NCBI GenBank assembly: GCA_949128115.1 | Contig: OX421964.1 | Coordinates: 4,798,501-4,862,500, forward strand | From: Anaspis maculata | Lineage: Eukaryota > Arthropoda > Insecta > Coleoptera > Scraptiidae | Reading direction: 5' to 3' | Length of the DNA stretch: 64,000 bases | In this document: positions 48,771 to 61,938 of the stretch, one piece after another | How positions within the stretch are numbered: the first letter of the stretch is position 1 | Layout: the number at the start of each line of letters is the position of its first letter | Notes under the pieces: model-generated | Seen by the model: only the letters and a program-made list of their open reading frames with translations | Databases searched by the model: none | Told to the model about the DNA's origin: nothing | Program-made: the position numbers and the translations under genes

Positions 48771-48979
48771 CAAGTGAGTATGCCTTCACGTGCGTGAGTC
48801 TCAGTAGCGCATTTTCTCGAAGAGGCATATTGTGAACGTAAAGAAATTTGGTTGAAGGAGAAACACCATTCCTTGCCCACTTTCTTCATTCGAAACTCAT
48901 TGTGATATTGTGTTATCAGAATGGGGTACTTGCCAATGAAACAGATTTGAATGGAAATTCGTTCACATATCAATATATT

Positions 48980-49562
48980 TTTTCGTTTGAGGGCGGGAGC
49001 TGGGAGCGGCGACTAATCAACAGTAGTCTATTCCATTCTCTTCCATTTTTAGTCGGCTATCCATATAGCGAAAGAATTAGATCGCTATGTCTTCGGGTTT
49101 ATGTTTTCCATTTATCTCTTATACTTTGAGAGCAGCGTGTGGGGGTGGCAGCATTCAGCAAAGTAACTGTTGCACAGTTTGAGTTAGGAGTTTCTAAATG
49201 TTTAAGGGAATATGACAATCAGTGAAAATTGTGAAAGTTGCATTTTTTGTTTGGGGGCGGGAGCTGGAGGCGGCGACTAATCAAAAGTGGCCTATCTCTT
49301 CCCATTTTTAATCAGCTATCTATATAGCGGAACAATTAGATCGCTATGTCTTCAGGGTTATGTTTTACATTTATCTCTTACTTTGGGGGCGGCGTGTGGG
49401 AGCGGCAGAGTTTGGCAAAGAAATTCTTCCACAGTTTGAGTTGGGAGTTTATCTATGTTTGAGGTAACATTAACATCCAAATCAGTGAAAATTGTTGAAA
49501 GTTGCACTTTTTTTATTTTGGGGGTGGGAGTTGGAGGCGGCGCCATTTCAAAGGTAGCCTAT
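48980..49562 (+). repeat. ~265-bp tandem array, left part
   Basis: Units begin near 48990, 49253 and 49520 (GGGCGGGAGCTGGAGGCGGC-like) and carry ATAGCGAAAGAATTAGATCG and TTTGAGTTGGGAGTTT-like blocks. The third unit is cut at 49562 by the virus-like element and resumes at 60738. Confidence 0.85.
49557..49562 (+). other. 6-bp target-site duplication, left copy
   Basis: GCCTAT stands immediately left of the element end AGTAGGGTAAG. The identical GCCTAT is at 60738-60743. Six base pairs is the usual Polinton/Maverick duplication length. Confidence 0.93.
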
Positions 49563-50982
49563 AGTAGGGTAAGATAGCCGGTTCTGGGACCTCCTCCTCC
49601 TCCTCCTCCTCCTCCTCCTCCTCCTCCTCCTCCTCCTCCTCCTCCTCCTCCTCCTCCTCCTCCTCCTCCTCCTCATCCTCCTCCTCCTCCTCCTCCTCCT
49701 CCTCCTCCTCCTCCTCCTCCTCAGAGACATAGGGGAAAGTGGGCTAACCTGAGCTGACCCGAGTATGTAGGGGAGAGTTGGAAAATTTAGGATACAAAAT
49801 GGCGGCCTGACAGATGTCACCTGTCAACTGTCACCTGTCAGCTGTACATAGGGAAAAGTGGGCTAACCTGAGCCGACCCGAGTTTGTAGGGGAGAGTTGG
49901 GAAATTCAGAATACAAAATGGTGGCCTGTCAACTGTCACCTATCAACTGTCATTTGTCAGCTGTCAACTATCACTTCTCAGCTTTCAACTGTCCTGTCAC
50001 TTTGCATAGCTGCGCCATCCATGGATCGAATTTCTAACTATTGCCACCTGTCAAATGTCACTTGTCAGCTAGCAGAGCTACGCCATCTATTGATTGAATT
50101 TTCAACTGATCTCAGAACTGTCAGCTCGTGCCTGTCATATGTCATCAGCTACCAGAGATGTGGCATCTATGGATCGAATTTCCAACTAATCTCACAACTA
50201 TCAGCTCCCACCTATCACATGGCAGCGGTCAAAGATGCGCCGCCTATGGGTCGAGTTTCTAACTGATCTAACAGATGATAGCTCAAGGGCCCAAGGTCAT
50301 TGCATGTCACCTGCCACAACTGCCGGCTGTCAGAAATGTCACTCGACGTCATCTGGCGGTGGACTTTCGAGGCGATGCTGTCGAAGCTCTCAGTAGACTC
50401 TTACGTGATGCGACACCTGACGACTAGAGATTGTAGAATGTCTCATCTAGCGACGGACTTCTAGTGGAAGGTCTACCAGATGATATATTTTCATCATTTT
50501 CACTCCGGCAATAGGTATATGTTCATCAGTGTAATCAGTAACCACCAATCTCGAGAAATATTGTGATGGCTCGCGCGAAACTAGCGTCATACACCCGAAA
50601 TCGCGTCTACCTACAACTTCCGACTCATCTATTGAACGTCTCGCGTCGAGCATCATCTGCACGGAAAGTCTCAAAGTAGATATCAGCAAGGCAAGCTGTC
50701 ATCTAGCGTAGAGGTCTCAGAGCTGCCATGGCGCTATCTTTCCTTCATGTAAAACAGTAAAACATCCGTTGGAATCATACGACGACGATGAGGATGTTGT
50801 CCTGTTACATACATGTTCGCAGTTAACCTATGCGGGATAGCTACCTCACTATTTATAAATACACCATATTCATCAGTAGATCATCAGTCCAATGCTGATC
50901 GCTAAAGAAGGTAGTGGTTTGATGAATAGCGCAATAAATAACTTACCATTTGAGCTACACGTGCCAGGATATCAATATCTAG
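49563..50982 (+). repeat. Left TIR of the virus-like element
   Basis: It is the complement of 59176-60737. In order it carries the terminus, a (TCC)n tract, two ~120-bp direct repeats (GGGAAAGTGGGCTAACCTGA ... ATACAAAATGG), a zone of CTGTCAACTGTCACC-like short repeats, and the upstream region and first 30 codons of the PLA2 gene. Open frames such as 49814-50266 occur in both TIRs and look like by-products of the short repeats. Confidence 0.92.
49592..49720 (+). repeat. (TCC)n microsatellite in left TIR
   Basis: Nearly pure CTC/TCC triplets with one interruption (CTCATCC). The complementary tract in the right TIR is longer (about 60500-60710). Confidence 0.97.
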
Positions 50983-51836
50983 GACCTGGAACTAAATTAG
51001 CAAAACGTTTGAGTCGAGGTGACCCTGGCATCAACGAATTGGACCGGGCGGCTAAGGACCACGACATTGCCTATTCAAAATCGAAAAAATTGAGCGATCG
51101 GCATATAGCCGATGAAATTCTTCAAGAGAAGGCCTGGAAGCGGGTTAAATCTAAGGACGCTACATTTGGTGAGAAAGCGACGGCCTGGATTGTCACCAAC
51201 GTTATGAAAGTTAAGCGCAAATTGGGCATGGGGATCGCAGCGAAGAGAAGGATGGTTGATGAAAACAGTTCGATGGCTGCTGCTATGAAGAGGCTTGAAA
51301 GAGCTGAAACACCCGTGAAAAGGGGGAAAGGCGTAAAGCGTGTGAGGGAGACGACCACCTTGCGCAAAAAATTGAGTAAGACTAGGAAGTATGTGAAACC
51401 ATCTCGTTCAGGCGGTGCGCTGAAGATTCCATTCCGCAAGGCATTACTCGACCCTCTGAAGCGATATTCCAAGCGCATTGAAGATGATGAAGATGTGAGA
51501 AACATATCGGAGAAATCACTTGAAGTAGCACGTCGACTCATTAAAAACGTGGGAGGGCGCAAGCGCATTAGAATACCGCGGGTAATGCCGGTGCCAAAGA
51601 TTGGTGGATTTCTACCACTGATTCCCCTATTCGCAGCCCTATCAGCAGTTGGAGGCCTGACTGGTGGTGCAGCCGGTATTGCCAAGACTGTACTAGAGGC
51701 TAGAAGTGCTCAGAAGAGGTTGGATGAGGCCGAGCGGCATAATAAGCATATGGAGGCTATAGCATTAGGCAAGGGACTCTATCTGAAAAAGCATGGATCC
51801 GGACTCAGACTTTTTTACAACCAGTCAAAAAACTGA
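50892..51836 (+). CDS. Phospholipase A2-like virion protein with hydrophobic C-terminal segment
   Basis: This 314-aa protein starts inside the left TIR. Residues ~23-65 contain the two hallmarks of the parvovirus VP1-type PLA2: the calcium-loop motif YLGPG and the catalytic HD dyad with tyrosine in DRAAKDHDIAYSKS. In parvoviruses this enzyme cleaves endosomal membrane lipids during entry; a similar role here is inference. The middle is strongly basic (many K/R clusters). Residues ~235-270 form a hydrophobic Gly/Ala-rich stretch (GGFLPLIPLFAALSAVGGL), possibly membrane-active. LTGG|A within it fits the (M/I/L)xGG|x adenain cleavage pattern, so the neighbouring protease might process it. No stop or frameshift. 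Its TGA overlaps the next ATG (TGATG). Confidence 0.85.
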   Translation: MLIAKEGSGLMNSAINNLPFELHVPGYQYLGPGTKLAKRLSRGDPGINELDRAAKDHDIAYSKSKKLSDRHIADEILQEKAWKRVKSKDATFGEKATAWIVTNVMKVKRKLGMGIAAKRRMVDENSSMAAAMKRLERAETPVKRGKGVKRVRETTTLRKKLSKTRKYVKPSRSGGALKIPFRKALLDPLKRYSKRIEDDEDVRNISEKSLEVARRLIKNVGGRKRIRIPRVMPVPKIGGFLPLIPLFAALSAVGGLTGGAAGIAKTVLEARSAQKRLDEAERHNKHMEAIALGKGLYLKKHGSGLRLFYNQSKN

Positions 51837-52213
51837 TGGAGATGCTGCCCAGGAGAGCCCTGACTGACAGTGACATCCTAAAGTTTGCCAGGGTGTTTGA
51901 AATACCACATTTTCGAGGGGTGTTTATGCGGAATGAACTAAATGATCTGAAGCCACCGCATAAGTATGAAACGGCAATTGTGAATCTGGATTCGACGATC
52001 GGTGCTGGAACACATTGGGTGGCATATATGAAGCGTGAAGATAAAATATACTACTTTGACAGTTTCGGTGATTTGACACCTCCAATGGAACTTATAAGAT
52101 ACTTTGGCGATAAAAATTATAAAATATTTTTCAATTATGATAGATATCAAAAATGTAATACATTCAATTGTGGACACCTATGTATGGAATTCCTTCTCAA
52201 TAAAATGTTGTAA
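51836..52213 (+). CDS. Adenain-like cysteine protease
   Basis: This 125-aa protein has the layout of adenovirus/Polinton maturation proteases (C5/ULP1-like fold). The catalytic His60 is in GTHWVAY, the acidic residue Asp75 in YYFDSFGD, Gln105 in YQKC and the nucleophile Cys112 in FNCGHLC. It is shorter than adenain (~200 aa) but holds the whole catalytic set. The family cuts capsid and core precursors at Gly-rich sites during virion maturation. Its ATG overlaps the PLA2 stop by one base, so translation is probably coupled. The frame is intact. Confidence 0.88.
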   Translation: MEMLPRRALTDSDILKFARVFEIPHFRGVFMRNELNDLKPPHKYETAIVNLDSTIGAGTHWVAYMKREDKIYYFDSFGDLTPPMELIRYFGDKNYKIFFNYDRYQKCNTFNCGHLCMEFLLNKML

Positions 52214-52276
52214 TCTGAATTATTTCTGTCAGTTATTTATCGAACATTCTCCCTTCCTGATGTAAACGGCACTATC

Positions 52277-53039
52277 ATGTCAACTCCTGCTACCGAGGTG
52301 GGTGATGATGATGAGGAGGAGGCTGAATATGATGATGCTGTGACTGAGCTTGAGCAGACATCTCCGCTCAGCGCATTCAACTTCAGATTTAATTCAAACA
52401 GCCCGCTGGGGGTACAATTGATGGGGCTGCATGATTCATCCGATCGAAATAGCATAGATAGGACTTATGGGCCAAGTGTTATCAAACCTTGCTGCGAGTA
52501 TCAGTTGAGTGAAACCAGATTAAGAATCTGCGAGAGAACGCCCGACATTATCTCCATAGGGATGAGTCGATCTGATGAGGCGCGTAGGTTTAGAGGAACA
52601 CCTGGGATATATGAGCTGATATTTCTGATCTGATGAGGCGCGTAGGTTTAGAGAAATCCCTGGGATATATGAGCTGATATTCCTAAGATATCCTTGAGAG
52701 TATACGCGAATCGATGCTCGTCAATATGGTAAAATATTGAAGCTGACCAATGCGGCCAGAGTTGGGGCATCTTCCACAGGTCGAATTATGGGTAATAAAC
52801 GATATAGCTCAATGAAAATTATTGAACCATTACCAAGTGCTGCGGCCTACAGGGGCTCGGGAACGAGATATTCACAATATACCGAGAGTCCGGTAGAAAT
52901 TAGGTACTGGAATGACCCCAATGAATTAGTGAGAAGACTTGTTCGTCTCCACGCATCTCGCGGAGCCGGTAATAGTGCATGTGAGGTCGAAAGAATTCCA
53001 ATTGAATCGACATTACGCAAAGCTGGAATAATATATTAA
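52277..53039 (+). pseudogene. Broken element gene with C-terminal module shared with the 56.2-kb gene
   Basis: The first part (52277-52633) begins with an acidic stretch (EVGDDDEEEAEYDDAV) and continues to a GIYELIFL motif. A 58-bp direct duplication (52570-52627 and 52628-52685) shifts the frame, and a TGA at 52695-52697 adds a second lesion. The rest is open again to 53039. The final ~43 residues (YWNDPNELVRRLVRL ... RIPIESTLRKAGIIY) resemble the C-terminus of the DNA-binding protein at 56203-57516. I recognise this as a protein type associated with Polinton-like elements but know no function. It sits between protease and fibre-like gene and is probably inactive in this copy. Confidence 0.65.
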
Positions 53040-53044
53040 AGTTG

Positions 53045-53402
53045 ATGGCTGAAGTACACCTCACATCGATCATGTCAATTGACAAGTTCGGACGTGCATC
53101 GCATGTGACGAGGACTACGAACACCGCTACATCCAGTCATATATCAACCTCATTATAAGCTTACGGCTGACGGTGGCATCGATTGGGACAATCGTCGACT
53201 AATTGGTGTCGAGTACCTCAAGGCGGATCAGGACTGTGCTACAAATAAGTTTGTTGAAGATTACACGGGGAAATTTTTAGTTGAACTGCGACGGGGAGTG
53301 GAGGGGAAACTTGATGGCATACCATCACTGATTGAGAACATTATCATAGGCAACGGGATTCGATATGAAAGAGAGTGCAATCAACATGAATCACCCTGCT
53401 GA
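53045..53402 (+). pseudogene. Broken small gene, possible fibre- or virion-associated protein
   Basis: A 37-codon frame from the ATG at 53045 contains MSIDKFGRASH and stops at 53156-53158. An open frame in another phase (53160-53402) has LIGVEYLKADQDCATNKF, a layout resembling repeats of phage/virus fibre-like proteins, and runs into the integrase start. The two halves look like one gene split by a frameshift. The function is tentative. Confidence 0.4.
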
Positions 53403-54311
53403 AAAAGTTGAGCTGATCAATGAGCTGTTCAGGCCAGCGATTCGAAAATTCAGACGATGTCGTACAATCATAAAGGGGCTAGACGATCTATGGCAAGTGG
53501 ATTTGGCTGAATTTCGCGAGTATAGCAAAAGTAATCGCAACCATAATTATGTGCTAGTGGTGATTGACTGTTTTTCAAAGTTCCTATGGACAAGACCCTT
53601 GAAGACTAAGAGTGCAGGGAAAGTGTGCGCTGCAATGGCCGATATATTGCAAAACTCTAATGGTAGGATTCCAAAACACTTGCAGACTGATCAGGGTACT
53701 GAATTTTTCAATAAACAGTTCAATGCTTTAATGCGAAAATATGGAATTAATCATTATAATACATATAGTGTAATTAAAGCATCGATGGCTGAACGTGTCA
53801 TTAGAACTTTGAAATCTCGATTATACAAGGCATTCACACTTCATGCTACCCATAATTGGATTGATGATCTATTAGATGGAAGCACGAGTGAATATAATGA
53901 CACCAAGCATCGTACAACTGGATTGAAGCCAAATTTGATTAATAGGCGGAATGCTGCCAGAGTCCTACGAGACTCGTACACTCATTTGAAGAAATTTGGG
54001 AAAACTAAATTTGCAGTTGGTGATACGGTTCGGGTTAGCAAGTGTAAGCATCTATTTGAGAAAGGCTATACCCCGAATTGTTCAAAATCTCAAAAGTGAA
54101 TCCCACCACAGATCCGCCGACATATTTACTAGACGATCTTAAAGGGGATCCAATCAAGGGCCGCTTCTATACTGAGGAGTTGCAGCACACAAATCATCCT
54201 GAAATTTACCTGGTTGAAAAGGTCTTGAAGAGGAGGGGCTCTAGAATTTATGTCAAGTGGCTGGGCATGCCCGACTGCGGCTGGGTTCAGTCTGAAGACG
54301 TACTGAACTGA
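53365..54311 (+). pseudogene. DDE integrase + chromodomain, frameshifted
   Basis: This is the retroviral-type integrase of Polintons (related to the worm protein F54H12.3). The main frame (53365-54099, 244 aa) has the catalytic triad Asp46 (DLWQVDLAEF), Asp109 (LQTDQGTEFF) and Glu143 (SMAERVIRTLKS). After FEKGYTPN the frame is lost near 54080-54100 and resumes in another phase (54078-54311) as the domain normally fused to it: a chromodomain (EIYLVEKVLKRRGSRIYVKW, then WVQSEDVLN). The enzyme joins element ends to the target with a 6-bp stagger, matching the GCCTAT duplication. The core is intact but the chromodomain is uncoupled, so targeting would be lost in this copy. Confidence 0.9.
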
Positions 54312-54413
54312 GAACTGAGATCGTCAGTCGCAGTTGAAACCTGTCCGAGAAAAGTCATCATCACGATCATCACCATCAAAAGCATTCACAATAGTTACTA
54401 CAGCTAAGAAGAG

Positions 54414-55196
54414 ATGATGATGTTTAGCCAAGAAGATGCAAGGCGTACTTCCAGCCTCGATAGCCCGTCAGGGGATAGCAAAGTGTATCAGCCCCCATCT
54501 AATGATGTGGTGATCAACATCGAACCTGGCAGCGGTGAGGATGTCTGTGGCAATGGTGCTCCACTGACTTCCCTCAACCAGCTGATGAATAGATATGATG
54601 AAGCTATTCGAATGGAGCGAGAATTGACATATCAGTCAGTTCTGAATGGTGTGCATACAAAGATCGCTGTCGGATTCAGCCATGTCAGAGGATATTTGCC
54701 AACGATTAGTGTAACATCATTGGCAGAGTCTACCACTGTATCGTTCCTGTCACATGAATGGAATGAGTTCATGAACGTCCTGCGTCAGCCCAGTGCAACG
54801 AGTTCGGTCATTTATGAAAATTTCTCTGTCAAATTCGATGGTGATAAGCCGTTATACATATACAGTAGAGGGGAGACAATTCATTTAACAAGTGATTTCA
54901 TCGATGAAATCACTGCAATGTCACCGCTACTTCTATACCGGATGAAGATTTTGCATGAAATGAAGTTCAACGATTTCTATAATACCTTCTTGAGAACTGT
55001 TGGAGCTGTATTGGATGAACGCCGACGCTCGCCCCCATCAATAGCCGTCATCGTTGATGCTGCTGCAGCGCGTGAATTTATGGAACGATTACTATATAAC
55101 TTTGATACATCACAGCAAGTTTCATGTATGCTGGAGTGTATTCAATTCCACTATCGTACTATTTTATGTGACATAGAATCTCTATGCCGCGCCTAG
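54414..55196 (+). CDS. Unrecognised 260-aa element protein
   Basis: The frame is intact, directly downstream of the integrase on the same strand. It has a Ser/Asp/Pro-rich N-terminus (~60 aa), a probable beta-rich middle (~residues 80-165, with FLSHEWNEFMNVL and YIYSRGETIHLTSDF) and a helical C-terminal half ending in DIESLCRA. The middle faintly recalls a PC4-like ssDNA-binding fold; the position would also suit a minor virion protein. Neither is established. An AATAAA lies about 45 bp after the stop (55241-55246). Confidence 0.6.
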   Translation: MMMFSQEDARRTSSLDSPSGDSKVYQPPSNDVVINIEPGSGEDVCGNGAPLTSLNQLMNRYDEAIRMERELTYQSVLNGVHTKIAVGFSHVRGYLPTISVTSLAESTTVSFLSHEWNEFMNVLRQPSATSSVIYENFSVKFDGDKPLYIYSRGETIHLTSDFIDEITAMSPLLLYRMKILHEMKFNDFYNTFLRTVGAVLDERRRSPPSIAVIVDAAAAREFMERLLYNFDTSQQVSCMLECIQFHYRTILCDIESLCRA

Positions 55197-55240
55197 ATGT
55201 TTAAGTATATTTATGTATTACATATTTAGATAGGTACTAC

Positions 55241-55246
55241 AATAAA
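55241..55246 (+). terminator. Poly(A) signal after the 260-aa gene
   Basis: AATAAA lies ~45 bp downstream of the stop at 55196, in AT-rich sequence. Confidence 0.5.
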
Positions 55247-55438
55247 TAATTATCAAATGACGTTCATCTTTTTTTTTTGCCATGTCTATCTCAGATACAC
55301 TATAATAATTAATAACCATTGTAATAATGCTAAACTAGTGGTGTCGAAAGCCTTAGCGCCCCACTTATACCGACAACCTGGCGTCCCAGGCATATCGACA
55401 ACCTTCAGCGTCCCACCCATGGGGAAGAGGTGAGTCAC

Positions 55439-55750
55439 GCCGACTAACTTAGTGTCCCAATCATGCCGACTAACTTAGTGTCCCACCCATGCCGACTAAC
55501 TTAATGTCCCACCCATGCCGACTAACTTAGTGTCCCACCCATGCCGACTTACTTAGTGTCCCACCCATGCCGACTAACTTAGTGTCCCATCCATGCCGAC
55601 TAACTAAGTGTCCCACCCATGCCGACTAACTTAGTGTCCCACCCATGCCGACTAACTAAGTGTCCCATCCATGCCGACTAACTTAGTGTCTCACTCATGC
55701 CGACTAACCTAGTGTCCCACTCATGCCGACTAACTTAGTGTCCCACTCAT
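55439..55750 (+). repeat. 26-bp tandem array, 12 units
   Basis: Units begin GCCGACTAACTTAGTGTCCC followed by a CACCCAT-type end. Twelve exact 26-bp steps run from 55439 with few substitutions. Degenerate units flank it on both sides (about 55370-55420 and 55751-55790). It lies in the only long non-coding gap of the element. Confidence 0.95.
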
Positions 55751-55868
55751 GCCGACCAACAAACCAACTTAACGTACCACGCATACCGACAACATCCTCT
55801 ATCACGAAATCCAACCCGGGGATATCATTTAGCTGAAAAATCGCCCTTCAAAGACGACACAACGGCCA

Positions 55869-55938
55869 GACTATAGCGGGAATCGAACCCGCAACCTCCG
55901 AATCACAGGTGGATACTGACCACCTGTACTACGGGGTC
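55869..55938 (-). tRNA. tRNA-like sequence (degenerate or pseudo-tRNA)
   Basis: Read on the minus strand, a perfect T-arm (GCGGG TTCGATT CCCGC) contains the Pol III B-box GGTTCGATTCC. Upstream is an A-box/D-arm-like TAGTACAGGTGGTCAGTA. The anticodon-loop candidate is CTGTGAT (GTG, would be His), with only about three of five stem pairs, and only the outer three acceptor pairs form. It is therefore probably a decayed tRNA or a tRNA-derived Pol III promoter, not a working tRNA. It is unusual cargo for a Polinton. Confidence 0.55.
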
Positions 55939-56202
55939 GTCAAACGTCAAATAGTATTCAGCAGCTATCTAGGAATATATTGACGATGGTAGTAGTAGAA
56001 ATAAAGATGCCAAACATTTGGTATAGCTCATTTATTATTATCATTGTCCACATCAACGCTAACACCTCATATATTTCAACTCTTACTATAGGTAAAATTA
56101 GATTATGATACCGCTCAGAGCACATGCGCTCATAAATGTGATAGAAATCATAAATGATCAGCTAGGTATATGAAGCCGCGAATGGTGCCATGATACTCAC
56201 TC

Positions 56203-57516
56203 GTGGTCGATCTACCATCAATTATGGAAGGCAGTGATCCGAAAAACATGAAAATTCAAAATAATTCTGAAGTAATGGAAAATGCTATAGATAGAGTCCA
56301 ACGTGGAGCGTCGCTAAGGGCGATCGGACGTTTGTTCGGTATTCCGAGATCTACACTGTGGCGCTTGGTGCGACGGTATGAAGAAGTAGATGATGTGCAA
56401 ACTTATGATCCAAATATCGGGAATAGGAGAATCTTCTCAGCAGGCGAGGAATTGATACTTGCTGATTCCATCAAAGCTGCATCGAAAATGCAAGATGGTG
56501 TGTCACGCATGAAGGTGTGTAAACTCGCATTAAAACGAGCTAGGCTGCTGAACAAGAGATATCCCAAGCTCTGGGACAGGCGCCAGGCCGCATCTTTCGA
56601 CTGGTGTAGAGGATTCATAAAACGCCACCCAGACATTTCACTTAAAAGCCCTAGAGACGGCAATTTGATTCGAGTGGTAGATCTTGACAAAACATCTGAA
56701 GTCATCCCCCATAGAAAAAATCCTGTTACTGCCCCAAAAAGTGGGTTCAGCTCGAATGATTCGGCTATAAGTCTGAAGTATCCATTCACCGCTCCATCGA
56801 TCACATCGGCATTTATCCTCCCAGCCTCATCAACACCTCAGTCGACGTCGTCGCAGTCGTCAGCGCTCTCACCATCAGTCATCTTAATATCGCAAACAGA
56901 TGTGTCTGCTGGTGCTGCCGATGATGATAATGATGATGATGATGATGATGATGATGTGGCGTATGATTATATAATGCCAGATGTCAACTCCACTGTTGCT
57001 GATCCCAGTGCTACTGCTAGAGCGGATCCTCATGGTTCACAAGTTGAAGTGATCAAGGCCTGTGATTATGTCAACGTTGTCAGCCCGCGTTTTTCATCGA
57101 AGGATCCAATCAAATCGCGCGAGGGCTCTGAACATGTGACCATCACTAATCCTTCGAAGAATAATTCCATCTTGAAAAGTGGTATCAGGCGCGATGAATA
57201 TTGCAGCGGCTCAAACGTTTTCGATGATGATATGTCAGATAACAGCATCAATCATTTCACTGATGATGGGGAAGTTTCTTTTCCGAAGTCGCGAGTTGAA
57301 TCGCGTAAGGACTATAAGAATGTCTACAAGTACCACTCTTCATCGGAACGCCAATTTGTAAAGAGGCCCGTAGTATATAAATATTTCAGCGACATGAATG
57401 AGGTTGTAGAAAAATTGGTAACATTGAGTGCACAACAAAAAACTGGCGACGTCGACTGTATGCCGGAAATAGAGTCATTGGAGAACATTCTTCGGGAAGC
57501 TAAAGTGATATGGTGA
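56203..57516 (+). CDS. pogo/CENPB-type DNA-binding protein with shared C-terminal module
   Basis: This 437-aa protein is intact. Residues ~26-62 form a psq-type HTH (SLRAIGRLFGIPRSTLWRLV). Residues ~76-150 match the CENPB-like second HTH of pogo/Tigger transposases (DWCRGFIKRHPDISLKSP). No DDE catalytic core follows. Instead there is a Ser/Pro-rich linker, an aspartate run (~residues 245-256) and a C-terminal ~44-residue module (YFSDMNEVVEKLVTL ... SLENILREAKVIW) shared with the broken gene ending at 53039. Compare VDWLSSFLKRHPNLSLRTP in the transposase at 14136-16234: the same fold, different family. It probably binds element DNA as a regulator or end-binding factor. An alternative in-frame start is the ATG at 56224. 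Confidence 0.75.
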   Translation: MVDLPSIMEGSDPKNMKIQNNSEVMENAIDRVQRGASLRAIGRLFGIPRSTLWRLVRRYEEVDDVQTYDPNIGNRRIFSAGEELILADSIKAASKMQDGVSRMKVCKLALKRARLLNKRYPKLWDRRQAASFDWCRGFIKRHPDISLKSPRDGNLIRVVDLDKTSEVIPHRKNPVTAPKSGFSSNDSAISLKYPFTAPSITSAFILPASSTPQSTSSQSSALSPSVILISQTDVSAGAADDDNDDDDDDDDVAYDYIMPDVNSTVADPSATARADPHGSQVEVIKACDYVNVVSPRFSSKDPIKSREGSEHVTITNPSKNNSILKSGIRRDEYCSGSNVFDDDMSDNSINHFTDDGEVSFPKSRVESRKDYKNVYKYHSSSERQFVKRPVVYKYFSDMNEVVEKLVTLSAQQKTGDVDCMPEIESLENILREAKVIW

Positions 57517-57662
57517 TATTTTTTTTTTAGGCCATCATTATGCATAATATAAATAACTTTATTTCTATCATAAGTTTCTATATCATATACTTGGATGAGT
57601 TTCAACTCATGCCAGACTTTGCTTTATGGAATAGTTATCTGCAGATGTATTAAATATTCTGG

Positions 57663-57672
57663 TGAAAATAAA
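57663..57672 (+). terminator. Poly(A) signal after the DNA-binding gene
   Basis: AATAAA within GAAAATAAAATG lies about 150 bp after the stop at 57516, between two convergent genes. ACTTTATTTC near 57553 could serve the minus-strand capsid gene (AATAAA on that strand). Confidence 0.4.
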
Positions 57673-57748
57673 ATGTTAATCGATTGGAATGAGACATTTT
57701 TTCATCATTACTGGATGTATTGGATTAAGCGATTTTTTGTCCAGCATA

Positions 57749-58972
57749 CTACTGAATCTCTCTAACTGTGGAGTGGAGTGGGGAGTATTCATACAGCTTA
57801 TCATGTATGATTAACGCATATGCACGGGTATTTGCCGGGAAATTGTTGGCCGACTCAAACTCAAGTTTCACATCTACTGTAGACGATTGAAGCGACTCGA
57901 TCTGTTTGGAGCAGTCAATGATGAATATTGGATCAGTCTCGAATTCCTCATATTTTAGTAGCGGTGTCACACTTGACTTTCCGAGGAAGTTTCTGGGAAA
58001 ATCACAATAATTCTGGTAGGCCTCGGTATATTTTATAGTTGTAAAGTCGAAATTTTGATTCTCAAATGGATAGCTTACACTATTTAGCCAGAGTTTAATA
58101 TTCCGCAGTGTAATGTTGTCGAATCTGGTGCTATCGACTCTTGGATTATCCCGTCGATTAGTCTGATATGCCACAATACATGCTATAGGCTTCTCCAATT
58201 TCAGGCTGGTCTTGATCGACCAGATATCTTTGTTGGCAGGCCGCAACGCCGGTAGCTCGTGTAATTCAAATCTCCGGAATGGAATTTTAAATGTAACGCC
58301 GCTACCAATGTTTTTTAGCAATTTCAGCTTGAATTCGTCATTTGGGTACACATGCTGGACCTTTATGAATATTTTTCGAATTTCAATGGTCGCGCGGCTT
58401 GTTCCAGTAGATATATAGCAATTATCATCAACTCGGCGTCTCACAAGTCTGATTTTCTGACGACCCATCAATACCCGTTGATAATCATTGAAAATGTTCA
58501 ATAGGAATGGTAGTGGAATCCTAAAGCTCATCGTTCGATCATTATCATTATAGGTAGCAATCCCAGCTCTGGTTGGATCCCATCCGGTAGTGGCTAAAGC
58601 TCTGCTCTCATCCCGGCTGTATGAGGCTAGACCTCTCATGGCGGTTGTCGTCCCGGGATCGCGAAGCACGTCCAGTTCGCATCCATTTAGCTCATATGAT
58701 ATACGTTCAAAGAGGTTGATGCCGCAATTATTAGAGAGGGTACACACACCGCCACCTTGCACCTGAGCCTCAAGCCCGATCGGATTGAAGGCACATTCCA
58801 TATAGAGATGACCATCGTGGAATGCAATCAGAACATCTTGCTGATTAATCGCTATCTCAATTTCATCATTATTTTCAAACGAGGCTGTCTGTGCGTAGTA
58901 GGAGTGACCTTCTTCGCGCCAAATGCTCTCATCATAGACGGGGTCTTTAAATATGTCTAATTTTTCTGACAT
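57749..58972 (-). CDS. Major capsid-like protein (double-jelly-roll type, F54H12.2-like)
   Basis: This 407-aa intact protein is on the opposite strand to the other element genes. It opens with EKLDIFKDPVYDESIWREEG, then a pattern typical of the N-terminal strands of Polinton capsid proteins: NNDEIEIAINQQDVLIAF, HDGHLYMECAF, LFERISYELNGCELDVL, and YSRDESRALATTGWDP. The family (annotated F54H12.2-like in many animal genomes) forms the double-jelly-roll capsid shell. At 407 aa it is at the short end for the family. The neighbouring F54H12.3-like integrase supports the call. I rely on sequence pattern only; a structure prediction would settle it. Confidence 0.72.
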   Translation of the reverse strand: MSEKLDIFKDPVYDESIWREEGHSYYAQTASFENNDEIEIAINQQDVLIAFHDGHLYMECAFNPIGLEAQVQGGGVCTLSNNCGINLFERISYELNGCELDVLRDPGTTTAMRGLASYSRDESRALATTGWDPTRAGIATYNDNDRTMSFRIPLPFLLNIFNDYQRVLMGRQKIRLVRRRVDDNCYISTGTSRATIEIRKIFIKVQHVYPNDEFKLKLLKNIGSGVTFKIPFRRFELHELPALRPANKDIWSIKTSLKLEKPIACIVAYQTNRRDNPRVDSTRFDNITLRNIKLWLNSVSYPFENQNFDFTTIKYTEAYQNYCDFPRNFLGKSSVTPLLKYEEFETDPIFIIDCSKQIESLQSSTVDVKLEFESANNFPANTRAYALIIHDKLYEYSPLHSTVREIQ

Positions 58973-59159
58973 GATATCCCAAAGCTCTGAGATCTCGAAG
59001 AGATTTGGCTGTTACTTTTGGCGATGTTCCACGTACTAAATTGCCCAAGGCTCGGAGGTCTTGAAGAAATTTGGCTGTTTTCTTTGCTGATGTTCCACGA
59101 ACTGAATCGAATGATCGAACTGTTGGACTTTTATACAGTTGGTTGAATCTCAGCCCCAT
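58947..59159 (-). CDS. Small basic ORF with 22-residue tandem duplication
   Basis: The 70-codon frame lies between the right TIR and the capsid gene and overlaps the capsid start by 26 bp. It contains two near-identical modules (VRGTSAKKTAKFLQDLRALG and VRGTSPKVTAKSLRDLRALG) and is rich in Lys/Arg. It could be a small core-like DNA-binding protein, or simply a tandemly duplicated leader. No family recognised. Confidence 0.35.
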   Translation of the reverse strand: MGLRFNQLYKSPTVRSFDSVRGTSAKKTAKFLQDLRALGNLVRGTSPKVTAKSLRDLRALGYHVRKIRHI

Positions 59160-59167
59160 CCTGCTAA

Positions 59168-59266
59168 CTAATCTACTAGATATTGATATCCTGGCACGTG
59201 TAGCTCGAATGGTAAGTTATTTATTACGCTATTCATCAAACCGCTGCCTTCTTTAGCGATCAGCAT
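59168..59266 (-). pseudogene. Truncated PLA2 start carried by the right TIR
   Basis: The right TIR copies the upstream region and first 30 codons of the PLA2 gene (ATG at 59266, minus strand). Identity ends at 59176 and a stop follows two codons later (59168-59170). It is a 32-aa leader that cannot fold as an enzyme, but it places the same presumptive promoter upstream of the capsid gene. Confidence 0.7.
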
Positions 59267-60737
59267 TGGACTGATGATCTGCTGATGGATATGGTGTATT
59301 TATAAATAGTGAGGTAGGTATCCCACATAGGTTAACTGCGAACATGTATGTGACAGTCCAACATCCTCGTCGTCGTCGTATGATTCCAACGTATGTTTTT
59401 ACTGTTTTATATGGAGGAAAGATAGAGCCATGGCAGCTCTGAGACCTCTTCGCTAGATGAGAGCTCGCCTTGCTAATGTCTACTTTGACACTTTCCGTGC
59501 AGATGGTGCTCGACGCGAGACTTTTAATAGATGAGTCGTAAGTTGTAGGTGGACGCGACTTCAGGCCTAAAAACGCGATCTCATGTCGAAATTTCTTTTT
59601 TTTTTTACCCGCGCGCTAAGGTTCAAGTTGTATGACGCTAGTTTCGCGAGAGCCATCACAATATTTCTCGAGATTGGTGGTTACTGATTACACTGATGAA
59701 CATATACCTATTGCCGGAGTGAAAATGATGAAAATATATCATCTGGTAGACCTTCCACTAGAAGTCCGTCGCTAGATGAGACATTCTACAATCTCTAGTC
59801 GTCAGGTGTCGCATCACGTAAGAGTCTACTGAGAGCTTCGACAGCATCGCCTCGAAAGTCCACCGCCAGATGACGTCGAGTGACATTTCTGACAGCCGGC
59901 AGTTGTGGCAGGTGACATGCAATGACCTTGGGCCCTTGAGCTATCATCTGTTAGATCAGTTAGAAACTCGACCCATAGGCGGCGCATCTTTGACCGCTGC
60001 CATGTGATAGGTGGGAGCTGATAGTTGTGAGATTAGTTGGAAATTCGATCCATAGATGCCACATCTCTGGTAGCTGATGACATATGACAGGCACGAGCTG
60101 ACAGTTCTGAGATCAGTTGAAAATTCAATCAATAGATGGCGTAGCTCTGCTAGCTGACAAGTGACATTTGACAGGTGGCAATAGTTAGAAATTCGATCCA
60201 TGGATGGCGCAGCTATGCAAAGTGACAGGACAGTTGAAAGCTGAGAAGTGATAGTTGACAGCTGACAAATGACAGTTGATAGGTGACAGTTGACAGGCCA
60301 CCATTTTGTATTCTGAATTTCCCAACTCTCCCCTACAAACTCGGGTCGGCTCAGGTTAGCCCACTTTCCCCTATGTACAGCTGACAGGTGACAGTTGACA
60401 GGTGACATCTGTCAGGCCGCCATTTTGTATCCTAAATTTTCCAACTCTCCCCTACATACTCGGGTCAGCTCAGGTTAGCCCACTTTCCCCTATGTCTCTG
60501 AGGAGGAGGAGGAGGAGGAGGAGGAGGAGGAGGAGGAGGAGGAGGAGGAGGAGGAGGAGGAGGAGGAGGAGGAGGAGGAGGAGGAGGAGGAGGAGGAGGA
60601 GGAGGAGGAGGAGGAGGAGGAGGAGGAGGAGGAGGAGGAGGAGGATGAGGAGGAGGAGGAGGAGGAGGAGGAGGAGGAGGAGGAGGAGGAGGAGGAGGAG
60701 GAGGAGGAGGTCCCAGAACCGGCTATCTTACCCTACT
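59176..60737 (-). repeat. Right TIR of the virus-like element
   Basis: It is the complement of 49563-50982. It is longer because of an expanded (GGA)n tract and an insertion of about 65 bp (about 59564-59628, including a T-run) absent from the left TIR. Confidence 0.92.
60500..60712 (+). repeat. (GGA)n microsatellite in right TIR
   Basis: About 210 bp of GGA/GAG triplets with one GAT interruption, complementary to the ~130-bp (TCC)n tract of the left TIR. The long Arg-rich open frame here is an artefact of the repeat. Confidence 0.97.
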
Positions 60738-60743
60738 GCCTAT
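60738..60743 (+). other. 6-bp target-site duplication, right copy
   Basis: GCCTAT is identical to 49557-49562, and the ~265-bp repeat unit resumes directly after it (TCTTTCCCATTTTTAG). Confidence 0.93.
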
Positions 60744-61640
60744 TCTTTCCCATTTTTAGTAAGCTATCCATATAGCGAAAGAATTAGATCGTTATGTCTT
60801 CGGGTTTATGTTTTTCACTCATCTCTCACTTTGAGGGCAGCGTGTGGGGGCGGCTGCATTCGGCAAAGTAACTGTTGCACAGCACAGTTGGGAGTTTCTA
60901 AATGTGAGGGAAATATGAAAATCAGTGAAAATTGTAAAAGTTGCATTTTTTTTGTTTGGAGGCGGCAGCTGGAGGCGGCGGCTAATTAAAAGTGACCTAT
61001 ATTTTTCTAATTTCAGTCAGCTATCAATATAGTGGAAGAAGTAGATCGCTATGTCTTCAGGTTCATGGTTTACATTCATCTCTCACTTTGGGGGCGGCGT
61101 GTGGGAGCGGCAGAGTTTGGCAAAGAAATTCTTGCACAGTTTGAGTCAAGAGTTTCTAAATGTTTGAGGTAACATTAATAGCTAAATCAGTGAAAATTGT
61201 TGAAAGTTGCACTTTTTTTCTTTTGAGGGCGGAAGCTGGAGGCGGCGCCATATCAAAAGTAGCCAATCCTTTTCCATTTTAAGGCAGCTATCCATATAGC
61301 GAAAAACTTAGATCGCTATGTCTTCGGGTTCATGTTTTTCATTTATCTCTCACTTTGGGGGCGGCGTGTGGGAGCGGCAGCGTTCGGCTGAGCAAATGTT
61401 GCACAATTTGAGTTGGCAGTTCTTAAATGTTTGAGGGAACATCTCAATCAGTAACATTTGTGAAAGTTGCACTTTTTATCGTTTGGGGGCGGGATCTGGG
61501 GGGCGGCGACTAACCAAAAGTAGCCTATCCTTTCCCATTTTTAGTCAGCTATTTATATACCGAAAGAATCAGATCGCTATGTCTTCGGGTTTATGTTATT
61601 CATTTTAAAGTGATTGGGGGCGGTTTTTAGCAGTTTTTTC
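60744..61640 (+). repeat. ~265-bp tandem array, right part
   Basis: The array continues with units near 60957, 61225 and 61484. AAAAGTAGCCTATCCTTTCC at about 61509 shows the uninterrupted target sequence into which the element went. Confidence 0.85.
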
Positions 61641-61938
61641 ATGTCGGCGGCGCATATTGAAGACGGAATGTTTCTTGGCTTACGTTTATAAGTGGCAACT
61701 ATGTATTATTCAAAAAATGAGAACACCAGAGCATCAGGTCTGGTAGAAAGTGCAATATTATGTTATTATTATATGTATATTCTTATGTTATTTCAAGTTT
61801 ATCGGCGGCGGTTTTCTCTATGTTGGCGGCGCAAAATAGACATCCAATATAGCCTAGCCCTCCTTTGGGAGTGGCAGCTATGTAACAGCGAAAAAATTAG
61901 AAAGCTAGGTCGTCTAGTTTGGGAGGAGTTCGAAGAAC

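Follow-up and report, generated by a model that had tools for sequence, protein, structure and literature searches.

The 64,000-nucleotide stretch of Anaspis maculata DNA analysed here (the window, C4:4798501–4862500 of a 757.8-Mb assembly of 50 contigs) contains a Polinton-type element of 11.2 kb at positions 49563–60737; positions without a contig prefix are those of the window. To judge from the sequences, this compact element is a member of a real, multi-copy satellite lineage of Polintons, whose borrowing from other elements in trans we infer. We propose that the lineage is non-autonomous and capsid-encoding, and that it uses the PolB, packaging ATPase and penton of a 20.3-kb sister family in trans; we assign this reading a probability of about 0.72. 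It is based on ten copies, termini shared with the sister family, an old divergence, and purifying selection on the capsid and PLA2 genes. The same observations support the suggestion, made in a preliminary description of the element, of a satellite-like lineage that borrows replication and packaging.

Compact copies and their PolB-bearing sister family

A genome-wide search with the terminal inverted repeats (TIRs), for which pieces of fifteen further elements were fetched, identified ten copies of the compact type, including that of the window, and none contains PolB or ATPase in the pieces read. The preliminary description had proposed a search of the host genome for copies; the nine others include one chimera and one deleted copy. 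Five copies are 11.9–12.9 kb long. The copy at C2:69.23M is internally deleted (7.7 kb), that at C6:60.03M is 9.0 kb long and lacks the capsid gene, and that at C4:95.09M has 15.4 kb. Chimera G (C1:80054800–80069800) combines a truncated left half of the 20-kb type with a right half of the compact type. It was set aside as proof of shared replication, since ectopic recombination or an assembly join could equally have produced it.

The sister family has six copies of 20.3–21.3 kb, one of them cut by a contig end, which carry PolB, ATPase and penton; the PolB and ATPase frames are open in all six. Its proteins are similar to those of the compact type, with identities of about 73% for PLA2, 79–82% for the protease, 84% for the integrase, and 89% for the capsid protein. 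The compact type and this PolB-bearing family of the same genome have identical 29-bp ends. The 29-bp terminus has 35 matches in the genome with up to three mismatches, and the 31 without a mismatch are 18 compact ends, 11 sister ends, and two lone ends on C2. Target site duplications (TSDs) are perfect in eight of nine two-ended compact copies, the deleted copy being the exception, and in all five two-ended sister copies. The capsid frame is open in all eight compact loci that carry the gene. We rejected the possibility that the compact type relies on some further, undetected PolB element with these ends, since beyond these two families the search for ends returned only the two lone C2 ends and near-matches on C4. 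The latter (C4:13841871–13844227) lie 2.4 kb apart and possibly bound a miniature derivative.

The sister ATPase matches Pox_A32 in Pfam (8.6e-7), and the sister PolB contains exonuclease and polymerase motifs in order. A frame 60% identical to this PolB (C2:15895344) matches PF03175 (8.8e-24) in the same place. The sister penton has 243 residues and 286 database relatives. The AlphaFold2 model of a relative with 75% identity (pLDDT 90.7) has the mavirus penton as its best match among solved structures (Foldseek E 2.7e-9), and among viral models it matches unnamed proteins and putative minor-capsid or penton proteins. A PDB sequence search with the penton profile and PolB gave nothing informative, the sister PolB had no match in phages, plasmids or NCBIfam, and HTH437 (described below), the capsid protein and PolB had no relatives in the viral contig collection. 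Six species are named among the capsid relatives, all of them beetles, and one named penton relative likewise points to a beetle host.

The genome is very rich in Polintons, with at least 102 capsid and at least 150 ATPase loci from several families, mostly with open frames. The genome searches scored part of their candidates: 102 of 272 for the major capsid protein (MCP), 150 of 353 for ATPase, 96 of 526 for the helix-turn-helix (HTH) protein, 42 of 362 for PolB, 126 of 2623 for integrase, and 84 of 275 for PF03175. For 19 of the 102 listed capsid loci, no ATPase is listed within 9 kb: these are the eight compact ones, the large-type one of the chimera, and ten others.

Absence of PolB, ATPase and penton

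The claim of the preliminary description that the element has no PolB or packaging ATPase, and the six-frame check that it had proposed, were followed up with tblastn using the sister proteins and a Pfam scan of the frames; the claim was confirmed and no remnant was found in the element. In the nine non-chimeric compact copies, the sister PolB, ATPase, penton, ORF195, ORF295 and ORF114 (ORF, open reading frame) had no tblastn match at E≤1. Chimera G gave no PolB or ATPase match by tblastn, and pieces of penton and ORF195 only in its large-family half. Scanned with Pfam, 45 stop-to-stop reading frames from the element (at least 60 residues, frames with long single-residue runs left out) showed no polymerase, ATPase, helicase or nickase family. 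The genome searches listed nothing within the element for PolB and PF03175, and nothing near it for ATPase, among the candidates scored. A PHROGs search returned transposase-like and unnamed families, with single weak matches to a DNA-binding and a terminase-small-subunit family. A PolB or ATPase remnant inside the element was rejected on the tblastn, Pfam and PHROGs scans. Three characteristic Polinton components were not detected: a protein-primed PolB, an A32/FtsK-type packaging ATPase, and a single jelly-roll penton.

Divergence and selection

The mean synonymous divergence (dS) of the capsid gene is 0.73 between the two types, 0.019 within the compact type, and 0.006 within the sister type. 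The ratio of nonsynonymous to synonymous divergence (dN/dS) between types is 0.073 for capsid, 0.113 for protease, 0.144 for integrase, and 0.178 for PLA2. Within the compact type, the corresponding polymorphism ratio (pN/pS) is 0.19 for capsid (16 synonymous and 11 nonsynonymous segregating sites, P 2.7e-5) and 0.27 for PLA2 (15 and 13 sites, P 5e-4). Broken, split and unequal-length copies were excluded from this test, which left five copies for integrase, four for the HTH gene, seven for o260, and eight for protease. The HTH gene is weakly constrained (P 0.03, four copies), and selection on o260 is indistinguishable from neutral. Because of the divergence between and within types and the constraint on capsid and PLA2, the compact lineage, as far as sequence comparison tells, dates far back, has moved recently, and has been maintained with respect to capsid and PLA2 at least. 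In the excerpt of PMC8097293, the purifying selection that acts on virion genes of Mavericks is taken to indicate that particles form and reinfect. Ends that are identical despite a gene dS of about 0.7 point to a common recognition machinery or to gene conversion.

Structure and gene content of the window element

The features of the element and its insertion site are as follows.

49557–49562, no strand: left target site duplication GCCTAT, read from sequence
49563–50593, + strand: left terminal inverted repeat; starts AGTAGGGTAAGATAG; CCT microsatellite at 49590–49722
50594–50982, + strand: inner diverged TIR continuation (91–94%), spanning the first 30 PLA2 codons
50892–51836, + strand: PLA2-domain virion-protein gene, 314 aa (Pfam PF08398, 1.5e-12)
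51836–52213, + strand: adenain-like cysteine protease, 125 aa (Pfam PF00770, 1.1e-4; 79–82% identity to that of the sister)
52277–52633, + strand: conserved Polinton protein, front piece (sister counterpart L035:6317 onward); frame disrupted in the window copy
52737–53039, + strand: same conserved Polinton protein, rear piece; its C-terminal motif recurs in HTH437
53063–53330, + strand: homologue of sister ORF124 in two aligned pieces, role unassigned (alignment)
53365–54099, + strand: rve integrase, catalytic part (Pfam PF00665, 6.3e-16)
54075–54305, + strand: C-terminal part of the integrase (chromodomain region of the sister integrase), in another frame (alignment to sister)
54414–55196, + strand: o260, fast-evolving; related proteins occur in the 20-kb family as well as in the HTH and structural elements of the Z family that were read
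55439–55760, + strand: 26-bp tandem array, 12.4 units; 12 exact occurrences of CATGCCGAC in the element
55868–55938, − strand: tRNA-like stretch, under the Rfam cut-off (23.0 bits versus 29)
56203–57516, + strand: HTH437, with a pogo/Psq-type DNA-binding domain, acidic linker, and C-terminal Polinton-protein motif (Pfam HTH_psq)
57749–58972, − strand: major capsid protein with a double jelly roll, 407 aa; compared with the sister family, the gene is inverted and lies in another place (PF21738, 3e-75)
59176–59565, − strand: inner part of the right TIR; a copy of the sequence upstream of PLA2 together with its first 30 codons; adjoins the capsid gene upstream
59629–60737, − strand: right terminal inverted repeat
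60738–60743, no strand: right target site duplication GCCTAT, read from sequence

The TIRs are about 1.1 kb long and have a perfect core of 1004 nt (49590–50593 and 59629–60632). The outermost positions of the element are 49563 and 60737, both termini read AGTAGGGTAAGATAG, and the diverged inner extension reaches 50982 on the left and 59176 on the right. Long TIRs with a 6-bp TSD are characteristic of Polintons/Mavericks, as are the adenain-like protease, double jelly-roll capsid and rve integrase, all of which are present, the integrase being broken in the window copy. The TIRs and perfect 6-bp duplication on both sides agree with the preliminary description, and its PLA2, adenain-like protease and capsid-like gene are borne out by Pfam. 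Its integrase with chromodomain stands as regards the rve domain; the chromodomain part lies in another frame of a gene that is broken here, and was assigned by alignment to the sister integrase, whose own Pfam match is weak (0.011). The statement that all genes serve the virion, entry, maturation or integration does not hold, since the HTH gene with its array, o260 and others are present. The absence of a penton, the HTH_psq gene, the 26-bp array, and the inverted and displaced capsid gene had been overlooked.

The gene at 52277–53039 is disrupted in the window copy as well. The integrase frame is open in six of the nine non-chimeric compact copies; the exceptions are the window copy, copy F with two stops, and copy B, in which the integrase pieces lie 3.6 kb apart. 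In the compact copies the capsid gene lies on the strand opposite to PLA2, beside the right TIR, and adjoins a copy of the region upstream of PLA2. Inward growth of the TIR (50892–50982 and 59176–59399) placed this second PLA2 upstream region with 30 codons before the capsid gene. The element splits a host tandem array of approximately 260-bp units (48978–49569 and 60738–61666), and adjacent units of the array offer a comparable site without interruption. The B-box word of the tRNA-like stretch is present in nine of the ten compact copies, eight of which also have the A box; the B-box word was found in no sister piece.

HTH437 and the 26-bp array

The HTH gene is present in all ten compact copies, whole in eight and partial or broken in two. 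Among approximately 5.8 billion proteins, HTH437 has a single relative at E≤1e-3, the psq and DDE_1 protein P0055, with 33% identity over 148 residues. The Pfam matches of HTH437 are to HTH families only; no DDE catalytic domain was matched, whereas P0055 has DDE_1. The last approximately 45 residues align with the C-terminus of the conserved Polinton protein of the sister, compact and Z elements. The 26-bp array is located 5′ of the gene. CATGCCGAC occurs 22–55 times in each of the nine other compact copies; it did not occur in the 12 of 16 sister pieces in which it was counted, nor elsewhere in the window. The array is the most likely binding site of HTH437. The 26-bp unit and the 59-bp array unit of the Z family have the word CATGCCGACT in common.

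The Z family

The genome contains at least 86 HTH relatives that have an open 473-aa frame and nearly equal scores, and one of these led to a second set of elements, the Z family. The Z HTH element C4:17263854–17273504, read in two pieces, is 9651 bp long, ends in AGTAGATAGAGAAGAGGG, is flanked by the TSD TCTGTC, and contains, besides its HTH gene and a 59-bp array, a relative of o260 and the tail of an integrase. It is inserted in a frame that, judged by eye, resembles reverse transcriptase. The Z end pattern has 129 matches per strand at up to two mismatches, 105 of which were listed; these gave 102 pairs, with three per strand left unpaired.

The 102 pairs, 9.6–14.0 kb long, comprise 54 with HTH only, 25 with capsid and ATPase, one with capsid only, nine with PolB only, and 13 without listed genes, as sorted with the top-scoring 72 of 102 MCP and 62 of 150 ATPase matches. 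No pair has two of these gene classes and none is near 20 kb. Identical 50-bp ends occur in 32 pairs (19 HTH, six capsid and ATPase, four PolB, three unassigned). By class, the elements with integrase, ATPase and capsid measure 11.7–12.9 kb, those with PolB 11.4–11.7 kb, and those with HTH and array 9.6–14 kb. Gene neighbourhoods were counted with all 102 MCP and 150 ATPase matches and 72 of 126 integrase matches, without re-sorting the 102 elements. None of the 18 Z-type PolB loci has a listed capsid, ATPase or integrase within 15 kb. ATPase lies within 9 kb of 44 of the 46 Z-type capsid loci and integrase within 9 kb of 45, and none of the 46 has a listed PolB within 20 kb. The other, non-Z PolB loci have ATPase within 15 kb in 18 of 24 cases.

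In the right half of one Z structural element, the conserved protein, integrase and o260 are accompanied by the tail of a protein related to ORF195, and there is no PolB. The left 5.2 kb of this element, known by coordinates only, include the end and the genes for ATPase and capsid, which lie 2.2 kb apart, too close for a PolB of the length seen here to fit between them. One Z PolB element carries the same TIR at its right end, and its left 5 kb lie outside the sequence read. To judge from the 105 listed end matches per strand and a PolB element read without this left part, the Z family looks like a split genome. Size alone leaves room for complete Z elements, given that the excerpt of PMC8097293 reports vertebrate Mavericks that are intact at 12.7 kb.

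Proposed mechanism and alternative explanations

Based on these comparisons, a mechanism for the propagation of the compact element can be outlined. The protein-primed PolB of an expressed sister element would copy the compact element from the shared ends. Particles made from either capsid protein would be completed by the penton and filled by the ATPase of the sister, and the compact capsid gene may be driven by the second copy of the PLA2 promoter region, made by the inward growth of the TIR. Insertion would be carried out by the element's own integrase or by that of the sister. HTH437, most likely bound to the 26-bp array, might through its Polinton-type tail dock the DNA to the replication or assembly machinery of the sister, which would favour the satellite; we regard this adaptor step as tentative, with the odds somewhat against it.

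Several points weigh against a satellite lineage. The identical ends could stem from gene conversion, and the retention of a capsid gene by a helper-dependent element is unexplained. Among compact copies, few changes are available for the integrase (pN/pS 1.08) and the protease (0.74), and selection was detected on neither; the integrase is broken or interrupted in three of nine non-chimeric copies. Selection measured between the families may partly predate the loss of PolB. The sister PolB itself has no PF03175 match, and only Endonuclease_7 is above the cut-off. A 10-bp word common to both arrays was reached in 47 of 20,000 shuffles.

The compact element is unlikely to be one segment of a multipartite Polinton that other elements need, as the Z family appears to be split. 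The exclusive classes of the 102 Z pairs, the separation of PolB from capsid at the Z loci, and the occurrence of HTH-plus-array elements in both systems speak for such a segment. However, the 20.3-kb sister looks complete alone, so that the compact element need not be essential, and the division of Z is drawn from 42 of 362 PolB candidates, with 24 of 129 ends per strand unlisted, three unpaired, 13 of 102 elements unassigned, and one PolB element read without its left 5 kb. In a broader version, which we consider to fall a little short of an even chance, Polintons in this genome are segmented, elements of each Z class need the other classes in order to spread, the compact element represents a hybrid stage along the same route, and the HTH protein and its CATGCCGAC array form a dedicated adaptor by which one piece recruits the machinery encoded on others. 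An element that titrates the capsid and polymerase of the sister and is tolerated by the host, as virophages do to giant viruses, would likewise keep divergent capsid and HTH genes with no replication enzymes detected. We find such interference improbable, although sequence alone cannot separate it from a satellite.

It is very improbable that the element is a minimal autonomous virus-transposon on host polymerases, with HTH437 and the array as initiator and origin like those of iteron plasmids. The HTH gene and the array word (12–55 matches) accompany all ten compact copies, and the word is absent from the sister pieces counted, but the scanned frames contain no helicase, nickase or polymerase family, ATPase and penton are lacking, and the termini are kept identical to those of PolB-bearing sisters, as dependence on PolB predicts. 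The loss of genes relative to the sister is real, and in the window copy the integrase is broken and a second gene disrupted; nevertheless, a dead-end derivative of the 20-kb family without a life of its own is highly implausible, given the capsid dS from the sister, purifying selection, nine other copies with mostly the same rearranged content and the extra gene, perfect TSDs in eight of nine, and open capsid frames. Eight different TSDs and flanks oppose segmental duplication as the source of the copies. The deletion derivative of the preliminary description stands only as a remote origin: the other copies have the rearranged gene content too, which contradicts a one-off deletion, and we rejected the latter on the basis of the other copies, dS and selection.

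Comparison with known systems

The compact element resembles Polintons/Mavericks (Eupolintoviridae, polintoviruses) in its TIRs, 6-bp TSD, rve integrase, adenain-like protease, and double jelly-roll capsid. It differs in that no PolB, A32 ATPase or penton was detected and in that it carries an HTH gene and an array in addition. The subscription literature or Repbase may contain records of non-autonomous Polintons. Among the full-text matches listed, which lie outside these two sources, no title or beginning of an abstract dealt with segmentation in Polintons or with a Polinton that has a capsid gene and no PolB. The excerpts give Polinton sizes of 15–20 kb (PMC4028283) and intact vertebrate Mavericks from 12.7 kb (PMC8097293); size is not diagnostic, as compact copies that are nearly complete measure up to 12.9 kb. 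Polintons are already known to lose genes: the excerpt of PMC4028283 describes nine without MCP, protease (PRO) and ATPase. Whereas those lack virion genes, the compact element loses the polymerase, packaging ATPase and vertex genes and keeps capsid, protease and integrase. Like the compact element, some adintoviruses in the excerpted part of PMC11071296 have a capsid without a detectable penton; the definition of adintoviruses given there, an OTU-type PolB with a hexon, excludes the compact element, in which no PolB was detected. The pogo/Psq-type transposase P0055 resembles HTH437 in its DNA-binding region, but HTH437 has no DDE match and ends in the Polinton-protein motif.

Virophages such as mavirus are likewise small, capsid-encoding and presumed helper-dependent, with related genes. 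Mavirus has its own ATPase and a giant-virus helper, whereas the presumed helper of the compact element is a sister Polinton. Unlike the compact element, mavirus also has its own PolB, as stated in the excerpt of PMC11071308. Polintons are treated as self-sufficient virus-transposons. A lineage that has kept the capsid and given up the polymerase, packaging motor and vertex protein next to a complete sister with identical termini would amount to a virophage-like relation within one animal genome.

Bidnaviruses have single-stranded DNA genomes. The segmented bidnaviruses carry an adintovirus-type PolB (excerpt of PMC11071296), and the distribution of their genome over several segments parallels the Z family; they differ in having a parvovirus-type single-jellyroll capsid and no double jelly-roll capsid. 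The Z family, the more surprising of the two results, raises the question whether double-stranded DNA virus-transposons can be segmented, which can be checked directly in other assemblies.

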